DNA of 64,000 bases, from assembly GCA_900110635.1 (NCBI GenBank), contig FOEK01000001.1, positions 1 through 64,000 on the forward strand, written 5' to 3'. Both the position numbers and the translations under genes were made by a program. Shown piece by piece: positions 15,162 to 18,758 of this stretch. Position 1 is the first letter of the stretch; the number at the start of each line of letters is the position of its first letter. The notes beneath the pieces were generated by a model. That model did no database searches. It had not been told where the DNA came from and saw only the letters and a program-made list of their open reading frames with translations. The DNA comes from Lachnospiraceae bacterium NE2001. Lineage in GTDB: Bacteria > Bacillota > Clostridia > Lachnospirales > Lachnospiraceae.

Positions 15162-17246
15162 CTACTGGTTCATAAGAGCTATAATTCTCTCAGTGTCATA
15201 CTCGCGTATTATCTCCTTCTCTGGTGCAGCACCAGATTCAGTATCACTGAGTTTTTGAGGCTCGACGGTCTTGTTAGTAACGATCACGTCTGCATCGGCC
15301 ATATTGTCAACAACCTCCGTTGCCATCATCTCAAAGAATGTGTAAACATTTATGATATCTGTGATGTGGAAGTAGTCTAGTATGAAGTCCATGCTTGTGG
15401 TTCCGGCAACTCTTGCATTGCTATCACGGGCTATGTTGAGCCAGATGAACTCGTTGGTCTTTAGATCTATGCCAAAAAGATATGCAAATGTGCTGGCACA
15501 GTCGATAACAAATGATGACTGAACTGTCTTTGGCTCATACACTTCGCCGCTGTCCTCCAGGTCTCTGGTCATATAACCTGCCTTGCAGAAACAGCTGGTA
15601 AAATGTGATCCTGAATATACGTTGTCGCAGAAGATCAGATATCTGATCTGTGGATGCTCCAGCTTAAACTGCTCCAGTTCAATATCAAAGTACTCTGAAC
15701 CGCCGTTGTAACCGCTTGTCTCGTCGCCAGAATAGGTAATGCCCTGGGACTGCTTTCCAGCCATGGTTCTCCATGAAAACTCGGTCTTATTACCATTTGA
15801 CTCTATTCCGAATACCGAGAGGTCGATATCATTTACCTTCTCCCAATAGGTGAAGGCACGTATCTTCTTGGTCTCTGGTATCTGGATCTTAGAACCCTTG
15901 GTAAGTACTCCGAAGCCTCCCTGGGAGGTTGCCTCCTGAAGTGGAAGGGCGTAGTTCTTCATCTCTGGATCTATGTATACCTTGCCCAGTCTGCCCTTCA
16001 GAACCCTTGCAAGATTATCCTTCAGTCTGTCTGACAGCATTCTTGCGGTGCCCTTTGAGATAGCTGACTGTCGGTTCTTCTGCTCTTCAGCTGTTTCAGT
16101 ATGAACTCTCAGCTTGTCGTACTTTGTGAACTTAAAGCTTCTTGGCTCAGACTTATTCTTATACTGAGCATACTGGATGATAAGCTGCATAAGCACTATG
16201 ACGTTCTTAGTATCCATACAGCTAAGCACGTACTCCATATCACCTACTGACTCGCATCTGCTCATTATATAGTTGAGCTGACGAAGCACTGCCGCCGAGC
16301 CTTTGCCTGACTTAAGCGCATCCACTGCTGCGCGGATATTTCTCTCGGTCATATTCTTCTCGAACTCTGAATATACGGACTGGTTCTCGTTGCCTCTCAT
16401 CGCATCAAGGAACTGCTGAGCCTCCTTGGACTTAGCCTTGTAATGTATGTGATGAAGGAGACCGTTCCATATCTTCTTCTTCTCGTAGCAGTTTCTTATA
16501 TCAACTCTGCCCAGTTCAAAGAGCTTATCGATAATCTCTGTAATGAACTTTCTGTCCTGGTTCTTCAGGTTGAGCTTCTTTATATTTTCATTTTCATAAT
16601 ATATATAGTTCAGCTCATCCACCAGCTTTATGACGTCTGAAAGTGATATGAACTGAGCGAACTCAACATTCTGAAAATCGATGATCAGTCTGATTGCTGT
16701 GTTCTTGGATGCTACATCAGCTGGAACAAACTTATAGTCGTAGATATACTGATTAACCATTCCGTACTGCTCTTCGCTAAGTGGTCTCGTGCCTGCTAAT
16801 AGATCATTAACGAATTCGCCCATCTTTAGTATGGCTTCCTTCTCATCTACGATTATGAAATCCTTGATGGCAGCACTCTCTTTAAATGCTGTTCTCTCAA
16901 ACTGCTCCTCGAACAGTGAATGTCCAGCCTCGGAAAAATGTCCAAAGCCGTAAGTTACTATATAATGTACCATCTGATCGAACAGAAGCTGATCTGGCGA
17001 GAGTGCTCTTACGCTCTCTGGGAAACCTTTGTAGAAAGGTGCTGGTACATTTTCACCCAGCTGCTTTGAAGCGAACTTGATCATGCTTTCGTCTACCAGC
17101 TTCTCACCCTGAACTATTCGGATATTGAACAGGTTGGCCAGGGCAAACAAGGTTTCAAACTGATTCTTGTTCGATGGTACTTCCATATCATTTACCAGGA
17201 TATGCTTATTAAATAAATACTCTTTATAAAAAATCTCTATAGCCAT
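15162..17246 (-). CDS. Large protein with a TerD-like domain, possible stress protein
   Basis: The ATG at 17246 (MAIEIFYKEYLFNK) is preferred because GGAGG stands nine bases before it; the frame opens three codons earlier. About 694 residues. The first 400 residues are helical, with no recognised fold. Residues about 425-570 resemble a TerD beta-sandwich: FTYWEKVNDIDLSVFGI, then GITYSGDETSGYNGGSEYFD and YLIFCDNVYSG. In TerD-like domains the D-I-D-L and G-D...E-Y/D acidic residues bind calcium. Related long proteins with an internal TerD-like domain occur in several phyla. Family knowledge links Ter proteins to tellurite, phage and envelope stress. No other ter genes are in the window. Monocistronic, with its own terminator. 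Confidence 0.6.
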   Translation of the reverse strand: MAIEIFYKEYLFNKHILVNDMEVPSNKNQFETLFALANLFNIRIVQGEKLVDESMIKFASKQLGENVPAPFYKGFPESVRALSPDQLLFDQMVHYIVTYGFGHFSEAGHSLFEEQFERTAFKESAAIKDFIIVDEKEAILKMGEFVNDLLAGTRPLSEEQYGMVNQYIYDYKFVPADVASKNTAIRLIIDFQNVEFAQFISLSDVIKLVDELNYIYYENENIKKLNLKNQDRKFITEIIDKLFELGRVDIRNCYEKKKIWNGLLHHIHYKAKSKEAQQFLDAMRGNENQSVYSEFEKNMTERNIRAAVDALKSGKGSAAVLRQLNYIMSRCESVGDMEYVLSCMDTKNVIVLMQLIIQYAQYKNKSEPRSFKFTKYDKLRVHTETAEEQKNRQSAISKGTARMLSDRLKDNLARVLKGRLGKVYIDPEMKNYALPLQEATSQGGFGVLTKGSKIQIPETKKIRAFTYWEKVNDIDLSVFGIESNGNKTEFSWRTMAGKQSQGITYSGDETSGYNGGSEYFDIELEQFKLEHPQIRYLIFCDNVYSGSHFTSCFCKAGYMTRDLEDSGEVYEPKTVQSSFVIDCASTFAYLFGIDLKTNEFIWLNIARDSNARVAGTTSMDFILDYFHITDIINVYTFFEMMATEVVDNMADADVIVTNKTVEPQKLSDTESGAAPEKEIIREYDTERIIALMNQ

Positions 17247-17355
17247 CTTAGCCATCCTCCTCTCTTTCTCATTTTATATGTCAGGGTTACTCGGCTGTTT
17301 TGTAAAATGCTGATGATATGGTGGGATTGGGTTTTGATTTATCGATCAGAAAAGG

Positions 17356-17515
17356 AGTAAATCCCACTAGCTATCAGCTTCACTGGCGATATTGTCAGAT
17401 TATCAAGGTGCTCTACCGTTGAGCTACAGCCGCACGTTATCGCGGCTGGCGGGACTCGAACCCGCAACATCCTGCGTGGAAGGCAAACGAAGTAAATCAA
17501 ACTAGCTGCCAGCTT
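17356..17515. repeat. 25-bp imperfect direct repeats flanking the tRNA-like locus
   Basis: Copies at 17356-17380 and 17491-17515 share 21 of 25 bases (agtaaatc..actagct..cagctt), in the same orientation and exactly 135 bases apart. They bracket the two tRNA-like halves, so the locus looks like one period of a former tandem repeat or the scar of a circular intermediate. Confidence 0.8.
17404..17487 (-). other. Permuted tRNA-Gly-like locus (3' part precedes 5' part)
   Basis: On the minus strand the order is: anticodon arm TTTGC-CTTCCAC-GCAGG (17487-17471, anticodon TCC), variable loop ATGTT, T arm GCGGG-TTCGAGT-CCCGC (17465-17449), 3' acceptor strand CAGCCGC (17448-17442), an 8-base spacer, then 5' acceptor strand GCGGCTG (17433-17427), TA, D arm GCTC-AACGGTA-GAGC (17424-17410), A26 and CCTTG. 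Both acceptor strands pair perfectly over 7 bp, and all arms are intact, but the halves are in reverse order. No CCA is encoded. It may be a circularly permuted tRNA gene, or the remains of two adjacent tRNA-Gly genes after a deletion. Not annotated as a functional tRNA for that reason. Confidence 0.6.
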
Positions 17516-17578: not shown

Positions 17579-18625
17579 TCACAAAAGTTGCAGTTCCCGT
17601 CTACGCTTCGCATCCACCAGGATCCACTCGTCGAGAGTTAGTGGTACATAGTCGGAGAACATGCAGAAGCAGTTGATCATATTGCACGGGATCGGCTCCG
17701 GCTCCTCAACACCCTTGGACAGGACCTTGGTGTTCTTCGTGATATCGATAAACTGATTCACCAGTTTCTCGTCGTGGGTATTGTGCACGTGGCCGTACAG
17801 CATATATGTTATAGGCGTCCCATCTGGCTTCTTTCTATACTGTCCGTTGTAGCAGAAGATCGGGTAATGGGATAAAATGACCCTCCTGCCATTATCGCCT
17901 ATCTCGGCGTACGGACGGATCCACTCAAAGAGTGAGGGATCAAAATCCTTATCCTCCAGATATCTGTCGTGATTACCTATAATGAGGTACTTCTTTCCCG
18001 CAAGCTGCTCCAGCACTTCGTTGGTGGACTTGCCCTTGGCAATGGAGAAATCGCCCAGAATATAAACCTCGTCCTTCTTTGTGACATTTTCATTCCATAT
18101 ACGGATCAGCTCTGGGTTCATCTCGTAATGGTCTTTAAATGGGCGGTGGTCCATCCTCCTGCACAGGCCGTCGTGAAAGAAATGCAGATCGGCGATGTAC
18201 AGCTTTCGGGCAGGAACCTTGGTGCCCTTGAGACTCTTCGAAAGGCGCTTCATATATCCCGCCCCGTAGAGCTCGTCGGGGATCATCTCTTCGGCCCTCT
18301 TCACCCACGTCTTGTCCAGATCATCCATTATATCGATGCCGTACTTTTCCTTCAGGCTCTCGTATCTGCCGCGGCGGATCATCTCGTAGACGTTGATGGC
18401 GTAACGGATGATGGCCGCGTCGTTCTTCGAAAGCACACCTGCCGGTTCGGTGTTCTCCGATGCTTTGGCTGGCTGAGGTTTATCTGGGGAACCCGTTAGT
18501 TTAATGAAGCTTTGGACACGGGTCAGACTTGCCCGGATATCATCCCCCTCCGATAAATCAAGCGCAAGATCAATGAGGGAGCCTACAATATTCAGTTCTT
18601 GTCTATCCAGATTAATCGTTTCCAC
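17579..18625 (-). CDS. Calcineurin-like metallophosphoesterase
   Basis: The frame is open to a GTG at 18679, but the GTG at 18625 (VETINLDRQELN) has AAGGA nine bases upstream and is preferred; about 348 residues. The C-terminal 200 residues are a metallophosphoesterase with all metal ligands: IADLHFFHD, YILGDFSIAKG, IIGNHDRY, ILSHYP and MLYGHVHNTHD. The first 130 residues are a helical extension without recognised fold. The domain belongs to the YfcE/phage-type group of small phosphodiesterases; substrate unknown. It stands alone with short gaps on both sides, GC-rich relative to its surroundings. Confidence 0.85.
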   Translation of the reverse strand: METINLDRQELNIVGSLIDLALDLSEGDDIRASLTRVQSFIKLTGSPDKPQPAKASENTEPAGVLSKNDAAIIRYAINVYEMIRRGRYESLKEKYGIDIMDDLDKTWVKRAEEMIPDELYGAGYMKRLSKSLKGTKVPARKLYIADLHFFHDGLCRRMDHRPFKDHYEMNPELIRIWNENVTKKDEVYILGDFSIAKGKSTNEVLEQLAGKKYLIIGNHDRYLEDKDFDPSLFEWIRPYAEIGDNGRRVILSHYPIFCYNGQYRKKPDGTPITYMLYGHVHNTHDEKLVNQFIDITKNTKVLSKGVEEPEPIPCNMINCFCMFSDYVPLTLDEWILVDAKRRRELQLL

Positions 18626-18758
18626 TTTGTTTATGTCCTTATTGTTTCTTTTGTCACATTTTATATTATGTTTAATCACCTGTCATTCTACCCGTAGTTT
18701 AATCCAGAAAAATCATCCATAATCTACTTAGTATCATTTTACTACTTTCTTATGATAA

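Follow-up and report, generated by a model that had tools for sequence, protein, structure and literature searches.

A permuted tRNA-like element in Lachnospiraceae bacterium NE2001 is very probably a Y RNA, encoded upstream of a predicted Ro60-like ring protein

Why should an intergenic region of a bacterial genome carry the arms of a tRNA in permuted order? Permuted tRNA genes, in which the 3′ half precedes the 5′ half, exist in red and green algae and an archaeon. The window (the whole 64,000-nucleotide stretch of Lachnospiraceae bacterium NE2001 DNA that was analysed, from contig FOEK01000001.1) holds such an arrangement at 17356–17515. Read on the minus strand from 17515 downwards, repeat copy 1 is followed by an anticodon-like hairpin, the T arm, the 3′ acceptor strand and 8 bases, and then by the 5′ acceptor strand, the D arm, a tail and repeat copy 2. 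A sequence-only reading had described this order and raised the possibility of a permuted tRNA-Gly gene between direct repeats, recombination of which would give a circle. The sequence read-out bears out the order itself, and the two acceptor strands are complementary as claimed (7 of 7 bp pair in the window copy); that reconstruction is sound as far as it went. Our interpretation is that the element, here called RNA1, belongs to the YrlA class of bacterial Y RNAs, and that an adjoining segment, RNA2, is a companion Y-like RNA without a tRNA mimic; the Y identity is well supported and we hold it to be very probable.

YrlA has been described as pairing its ends into a stem and carrying a domain that resembles the D, T and acceptor arms of tRNA (PMC8394870), and a structural survey reports that a bacterial Y RNA superposes on tRNAs by circular permutation, with 81 of 99 permuted pairs involving 6CU1 (PMC11472068). 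Two structural features of bacterial Y RNAs are present in RNA1, namely the permuted module of T arm, acceptor stem and D arm, and paired ends with an internal loop. Its parts are as follows.

17383–17512, minus strand: RNA1, very probably a YrlA-class Y RNA whose tRNA-like module is permuted (RF02553, covariance model R1, covariation over 35 sequences)
17508–17512, minus strand: 5′ strand of the outer stem, CTGGC, pairing with GCCAG at 17383–17387
17503–17507, minus strand: AGCTA of the internal loop, opposite AATATC at 17388–17393; invariant in 35 of 35 copies
17489–17502, minus strand: 5′ strand of the inner stem (17495–17502) running into TTACTTC (17489–17495)
17471–17475, minus strand: 3′ strand of the anticodon-like stem, forming 3 bp here with 17406–17408 behind the D arm
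17449–17465, minus strand: T arm (Rfam match, alignment, covariation)
17427–17448, minus strand: acceptor stem, 3′ strand first, capped by an 8-nt loop
17448–17442, minus strand: 3′ acceptor strand
17441–17434, minus strand: the 8 bases between the acceptor strands
17433–17427, minus strand: 5′ acceptor strand
17410–17424, minus strand: D arm, its stem invariant in 35 of 35 copies, which were picked by a D-arm pattern
17394–17401, minus strand: 3′ strand of the inner stem, AATCTGAC; 7 of 8 pairs form in the window

One inner-stem pair is mismatched in the window copy, its anticodon-like stem has only 3 bp, and folding it as a single sequence did not return the Y fold (−36.5 versus −43.8 kcal/mol, z near 0). 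Rfam at its curated cut-offs gave nothing in the window. A permissive scan of 385 bases gave YrlA (RF02553) as the best match, at 17405–17473 with 40.4 bits and E 1.1e-7, below the curated cut-off of 69 bits; the same model matched 16 of the 20 TROVE (Ro60) loci given, all below 69 bits (best 44.1). RF02553 also matches tRNA clusters of the window’s own genome at 21–31 bits and, at E≤0.1, has uninspected matches in 10 of the 14 control genomes, so weak matches to it need a check of the stem. A DNA similarity search for a second copy in the window’s genome returned only short stretches, none longer than 35 bases.

The fold was examined among relatives, drawn from public genomes as 80 of 81 confirmed loci that encode relatives of the 697-amino-acid protein downstream of RNA1 (alignment A1 comprised the window and 59 of the 80). 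A simple pattern for a T arm followed by a D arm, applied to the 900 nt upstream of the protein gene, matches in 33 of the 80 loci. Alignment A2 joined the window copy to 34 RNAs from 32 of these loci (n = 35); copies missed by the first pattern are absent from it, and one locus with two matches (L109) was left out since it resembles ordinary tandem tRNAs. The arms lie between a conserved 5′ strand, CAGCTA..TTTACTTC, and a conserved 3′ strand, AAT....ATATCGCC. Across the 35 sequences, 98.1% of the 1137 cells of the drawn structure are paired, and 24 of its 33 pairs show two-sided changes (255 cells). None of 500 shuffles reached any of the five measures used, and slid versions of the structure paired at 35–48%. 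Because A2 was chosen by T- and D-arm patterns, the invariance of those arms is partly a matter of selection; the covariation of the stem and the acceptor is not. The two helices of the end-pairing stem are paired in 97.7% and 97.9% of cells, with two-sided changes in 11 of 13 pairs, and the acceptor stem has such changes in 6 of 7 pairs. RNAalifold on A2 recovered the outer, inner, T, acceptor and D helices and did not recover the anticodon-like helix. The permuted tRNA-like fold is thus genuine, kept with compensatory changes in 34 further copies from 32 relatives.

The direct repeats find their place in the same structure. They are real and lie at a 135-base interval as had been stated, but they are imperfect, with 21 of 25 bases identical (84%), and a repeat finder at its default seed reported none. 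They had been proposed as recombination sites, a role that is not required: each repeat makes up the 5′ side of the stem in one of two tandem Y-like RNAs, and both of these RNAs have a 3′ partner strand of their own.

17491–17515, minus strand: repeat copy 1, the 5′ strand of RNA1
17356–17380, minus strand: repeat copy 2, the 5′ strand of RNA2
17310–17377, minus strand: RNA2, a Y-like hairpin without the tRNA module (descriptor match and minimum-energy fold)

RNA2 consists of an outer stem, a loop of AGCTA opposite CATATC, an 8-bp inner stem and TACTCC, and its minimum-energy fold when taken alone is exactly the hairpin of our descriptor (outer stem, AGCTA, inner stem, short loop). That descriptor found two hairpins in the window, RNA1 at 17383–17512 and RNA2 at 17310–17377. 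Of the 81 stretches, some with short upstream DNA, 60 gave one hairpin or more and 34 gave two to four, against none in 405 shuffles, which permuted pairs of bases; descriptor and threshold were set by the analyst in the same script, and at least one match, the lowest-scoring (L056, 629 nt upstream), looks spurious.

A covariance model, R1, was built from the 35 RNAs of A2 only, the window copy included. In the 64-kb window it scores 115.7 bits at 17379–17514, its sole match at E≤1 (RNA2 is unmatched), so the RNA1 signal is more than chance. Over the 80 loci R1 gave 114 matches at E≤0.01, of which some are tRNAs. In one locus (L086, 2482–3917) seven matches are arrayed upstream of a single ring-protein gene, four at 78–120 bits and three at 34–42.

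A search of 299 phylum-wide genomes found RNAs of the same type as RNA1 beside genes for a known Y RNA partner. At E≤1e-10 (searches of more than 40 genomes used stricter filters, by which weak matches are lost), R1 matched two places besides the window, at G307:C2:54046-54177 (74.3 bits) and G148:C3:24559-24692 (73.0 bits); these lie 50 and 16 nt, respectively, upstream of the picked start of a TROVE gene. Both TROVE genes had been found earlier in the same genomes by PF05731. TROVE occurs in 4 of the 299 genomes, the other two of which (G179 and G282) were unmatched by R1. The set was enlarged to 32 TROVE loci (L139–L170), 28 of them added from one order; many are closely related, with 22 distinct among the 29 matched sequences. 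R1 reached at least 51 bits in 28 of the 32, with one match per locus at E≤0.01; a match in L142 (27.6 bits) is to tandem tRNAs, and L139, L157 and L161 had none. All 26 matches that could be placed relative to the ORF of their TROVE locus are on its strand, 7–605 nt upstream. TTACTTC is found in 26 of the 28 TROVE-linked RNAs (25 at the same offset, L163 shifted by one) and in 31 of the 35 copies of A2. We regard these matches upstream of TROVE genes as the strongest evidence that RNA1 is a Y RNA.

If so, what protein would hold it in the window? The gene that follows RNA1 on its strand encodes a candidate.

15162–17255, minus strand: 697-amino-acid protein, predicted to form a helical ring like that of Ro60, into which a TerD domain is inserted at about 457–625 (AlphaFold, VIA-align)

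Pfam gave no match to this protein, the TROVE profile included, and found no RING domain. Modelled by AlphaFold with 60 sequences (pLDDT 90.4, pTM 0.90), its predicted structure contains a TerD fold (VIA-align to 2QNG: Z 13.9, rmsd 2.4, 147 residues aligned); PF02342 matches 4 of 60 family members, with a best E of 1.7e-5, and does not match the window protein. After TerD, the best long VIA-align matches are to Ro60, known as an autoantigen in humans, in which a vWA-like domain closes a ring of helical repeats: 9NFA (Z 7.5, rmsd 5.1, 335 aligned, over model residues 43–697) and 1YVP (Z 7.3, rmsd 5.0, 332 aligned). With residues 1–450 modelled alone (pLDDT 83.4), six Ro60 or TROVE entries stand in the first nine rows (243–272 aligned, Z 6.7–7.6), among them TROVE 9KOP (Z 7.6, rmsd 5.8, 243 aligned); the other rows with Z of at least 6 align only 79–110 residues, at Z up to 7.2. 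The tool warns that a Z below 8, or below about 13 for helical repeats, can reflect a common arrangement. Foldseek returned nothing at E≤0.001, and hhalign of the ring protein against 28 TROVE proteins gave a probability of 2%, no sign of kinship (of the 32 TROVE loci, L139, L142, L159 and L163 were dropped because no suitable right-strand ORF was picked). TROVE was also absent from the families listed (25 of 30) in a profile scan of 60 members of the protein family. With Z under the tool’s threshold and Foldseek and hhalign negative, we call the predicted structure Ro60-like and not a member of Ro60, kinship being unproven at a Z near 7.5.

The family has another relative by sequence. Residues 287–613 resemble NF041916, the MXAN_6230/SCO0854 RING family, at 80.9 bits against a family cut-off of 600. 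Only 3 of the 299 phylum genomes contain the protein family at E≤1e-20, near full length only in the window’s genome. Eight distant loci were examined, from two phylum genomes, from three of the 18 plasmid records that matched and from three of the 9 matching phage records. They gave no YrlA match at E≤0.5 and five weak R1 matches, the best at 17.6 bits; four of the five fall within a tRNA/tmRNA cluster of L174. In that locus, a fecal phage record (MT835874) whose contig is labelled phage, the distant ring-protein relative (25% identity) has a tmRNA and four tRNAs as its neighbours.

Within the genus, RNA and protein occur together. In the 61 genomes searched, 27 R1 matches of at least 90 bits are spread over 24 genomes, the protein occurs in 33, and 22 have both (Fisher p 1.4e-6, without correction for kinship). 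Three genomes (G019, G025 and G074) carry RNA1 without the protein on that contig, and 11 carry the protein but no RNA1 that reaches 90 bits; in five of these 11 (G005, G031, G062, G072 and G082) a weaker R1 match adjoins the protein. PF05731 finds TROVE in none of the 61, which fits replacement by the ring protein. One genome of the phylum set, G148 (L141, L173), has both a true TROVE gene with its Y RNA and a distant ring–TerD relative, so the families can coexist. From its fold and position, the ring protein is probably the partner that binds the Y stem.

Upstream of RNA1 lies a further gene on the same strand.

17579–18679, minus strand: calcineurin-like phosphoesterase (Pfam)

Its ORF cluster covers only 4 of the 81 stretches, the window included, which places it outside the conserved unit; with the 80 loci and the window pooled, the largest cluster besides the ring protein covers 10 loci. 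Defence-system models gave one weak match for the phosphoesterase (E 0.046) and nothing for the ring protein. In 5 of the 80 loci (L039, L040, L042, L062 and L108) an RtcB ligase gene (PF01139) lies no more than 4 kb from the ring gene, and in L039 and L040 such genes are present on both sides of it. A RING-bearing distant ring–TerD relative on a plasmid of Variovorax sp. WDL1 (L176) lies about 1.3 kb from rtcR, an RNA-repair activator gene. Further, in 5 of the 7 genus genomes with a long RtcB, a weaker YrlA-like R1 match (41–56 bits) follows that gene on the same strand, 109–299 nt downstream. The sequence was read for the first of these, L136, only; no ring–TerD protein was found in its genome, G029.

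G029:C13:238219-238339 (L136), RtcB-linked R1 match
G067:C139:1898-1971, RtcB-linked R1 match
G069:C69:27314-27379, RtcB-linked R1 match
G070:C24:28232-28305, RtcB-linked R1 match
G007:C2:11244-11375, RtcB-linked R1 match

What the module might mimic is suggested by the 12 bases before its variable loop. Compared with the anticodon loops of 122 tRNAs from loci L001–L118, these have a mean best identity of 8.49 of 12, versus 7.25 for shuffled loops, and 9 of the 35 copies (resembling Ala, Asp, Gly, Ile and Lys once each and Pro in four cases) reach at least 10 of 12, versus 2.7% of shuffled ones. The window copy most resembles Ala(tgc). Different copies resemble different tRNA isotypes, as if the 3′ half had been swapped with tRNA genes. 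This resemblance, the RtcB ligases near some copies and a competitive-inhibitor role that has been proposed for the tRNA-like domain of YrlA (PMC7790460) are what one might expect of a decoy for anticodon nucleases of phage or toxin–antitoxin origin. Such a decoy would leave the end-pairing stem unexplained, however, and likewise RNA2, which has no tRNA part; and among the six window proteins scanned no nuclease was recognised alongside. We consider a decoy unlikely.

A cis-acting tRNA-like leader, controlling the ring-protein gene through RNase P processing or protein autoregulation, for example, and not released as a free RNA, would account for the position of the element: 22 of the 27 genus matches of at least 90 bits share the strand of the protein match and fall in the 600 nt upstream of it, at distances of 54–412 nt, and no separate promoter- or terminator-like site was seen in the window. 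But in G002 RNA1 and the protein match are 23 kb apart on one contig, and G063 has an extra copy on another contig, positions that argue for action in trans. In two relatives (L061 and L113) a T run comes directly after the 3′ strand, and in some relatives −10-like hexamers adjoin the copies; hexamers with at least 5 of 6 bases occur upstream of 25 of the 35, versus 17.5 (s.d. 2.7) in shuffles, at scattered positions, an enrichment that is suggestive only. The bacterial Y RNAs studied act free, bound to Rsr and PNPase, according to PMC8394870. Control of the gene as a leader alone is thus distinctly improbable, though leader and free-RNA roles could coexist.

The functional permuted tRNA-Gly gene of the sequence-only reading, its halves joined through an RNA or DNA circle, has the order of arms on its side and is nevertheless hardly credible. 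At default settings ARAGORN found no tRNA anywhere in the window, nor in the 135-base unit in linear, doubled or circular form. The rejoined form was recognised only when an intron was allowed, the circularised unit then giving tRNA-Gly(tcc) with a 55-nt intron; a circle can thus yield a normally ordered tRNA-Gly, as had been claimed, but no circle is necessary. With a lowered threshold the program reported instead an unpermuted tRNA-Gly(tcc) at 4–75 of the unit, the same reading as an Rfam tRNA match at 17441–17509 (22.9 bits versus a cut-off of 29), and with introns allowed as well it listed 128 candidates on the unit, so that the rejoined tRNA is not singled out. The anticodon stem TTTGC/GCAGG does exist in the window; it is not the conserved element, for a local anticodon hairpin (at least 4 of 5 bp) is formed in only 11 of the 35 copies, the window’s among them, and is complete in 3, against the near-universal pairing of the end stem. 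Conservation of the TCC anticodon loop was not found among the 35 copies, whose loops resemble different isotypes in different relatives, and the repeats are the stems of two RNAs. The permuted gene proves to be a misreading, the permutation being the architecture of a bacterial Y RNA; with this false lead removed, wherever a bacterial intergenic region shows tRNA-like arms in permuted order, a Y RNA is the reading to test first. Two adjacent decayed tRNA-Gly genes, the plainer alternative offered before, would agree with the unpermuted reading, with the T-arm, spacer and D-arm order that tandem tRNA genes also yield and with the weak matches of tandems to RF02553 and R1, but they are refuted by the conserved covariation, since compensatory changes in 34 further copies run through an acceptor stem that would span the ‘two genes’, and since the flanks carry Y-stem motifs; we give them next to no weight.

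With RNA1 taken as a Y RNA, a mechanism can be proposed. The ring protein would bind the Y stem as Ro60 binds Y RNA, and the Y RNA, sitting on the ring, would tether an effector through its tRNA-like module, by analogy with the known tether of Rsr and PNPase (PMC8394870). That effector may handle tRNA or structured RNA: it is PNPase in the known case, with RtcB or tRNA enzymes as candidates here, and any single effector is far less likely than the ring protein as a partner. RNA2 may occupy the same ring without offering a tRNA-like module. The module itself may, speculatively, stand for a tRNA opened at the anticodon, an idea supported by the anticodon-loop resemblance to different isotypes.

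Tentatively, and as a possibility that we think less likely to be right than wrong, these elements may belong to a hidden second branch of Ro60-type ribonucleoproteins. In it, a ring with an inserted, putatively ligand-sensing TerD domain would replace TROVE in rumen and gut Lachnospiraceae and keep arrays of one to several Y RNAs. The module would be a copy of an anticodon-opened tRNA, redrawn repeatedly from the 3′ halves of different tRNAs; the particle would thereby present a ‘broken tRNA’ to enzymes of repair or decay, RtcB for example, and TerD may read a nucleotide-like signal that switches the particle. At the time of PMC7790460, Deinococcus radiodurans was the only bacterium in which the roles of Ro60 and Y RNA had been studied, and we found no description of an RNA1-type RNA or of its pairing with this protein in the open-licence literature. 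If the ring, which sequence profiles fail to recognise, is Ro60-like, the Y RNA arrays would widen the range of this class of RNA quality-control particle to include rumen and gut bacteria, would tie Y RNA particles to TerD domains, and would supply many natural variants with which to test the role of the tRNA mimic.

How, then, does the locus compare with known systems? Like the permuted tRNA genes of algae and an archaeon, RNA1 has its 3′ half before its 5′ half; unlike them, it has an unconserved anticodon arm and ends held by a stem of the protein-binding type. The NF041916 family shares similarity with the window protein, which has no RING and scores far below 600, and beside the eight distant loci there was no RNA1-type RNA, unlike in the window. 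Ro60 and Rsr (1YVP, 2NVO, 9NFA and 9L5Y) align over 243–335 residues with the predicted helical ring of the 697-amino-acid protein and share with it a gene next to a Y RNA; the protein differs in its inserted TerD domain and has no detectable sequence similarity to them. The TROVE-linked Y RNAs of other Bacillota (L139–L170) differ from RNA1 in outer stem and internal loop, which read GAGGCGC.. / ..CCTC, and share with it the R1 matches, TTACTTC and the upstream position. A close parallel is Salmonella, with its rsr-yrlBA-rtcBA arrangement (PMC7790460); the YrlA stem tethers the Ro60-like ring Rsr and the tRNA-like domain binds PNPase (PMC8394870). The window locus departs from that system in that RNA2 lacks the mimic and the neighbouring protein a TROVE match, and RNA1 has AGCTA/ATATC in its stem loop in place of the RF02553 consensus. 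What the two share is the YrlA design (RF02553; Salmonella YrlA, PDB 6CU1), a permuted T arm, closed acceptor and D arm on paired ends with an internal loop, together with an adjoining ring-protein gene and, as in rsr-yrlBA, a second RNA in tandem.
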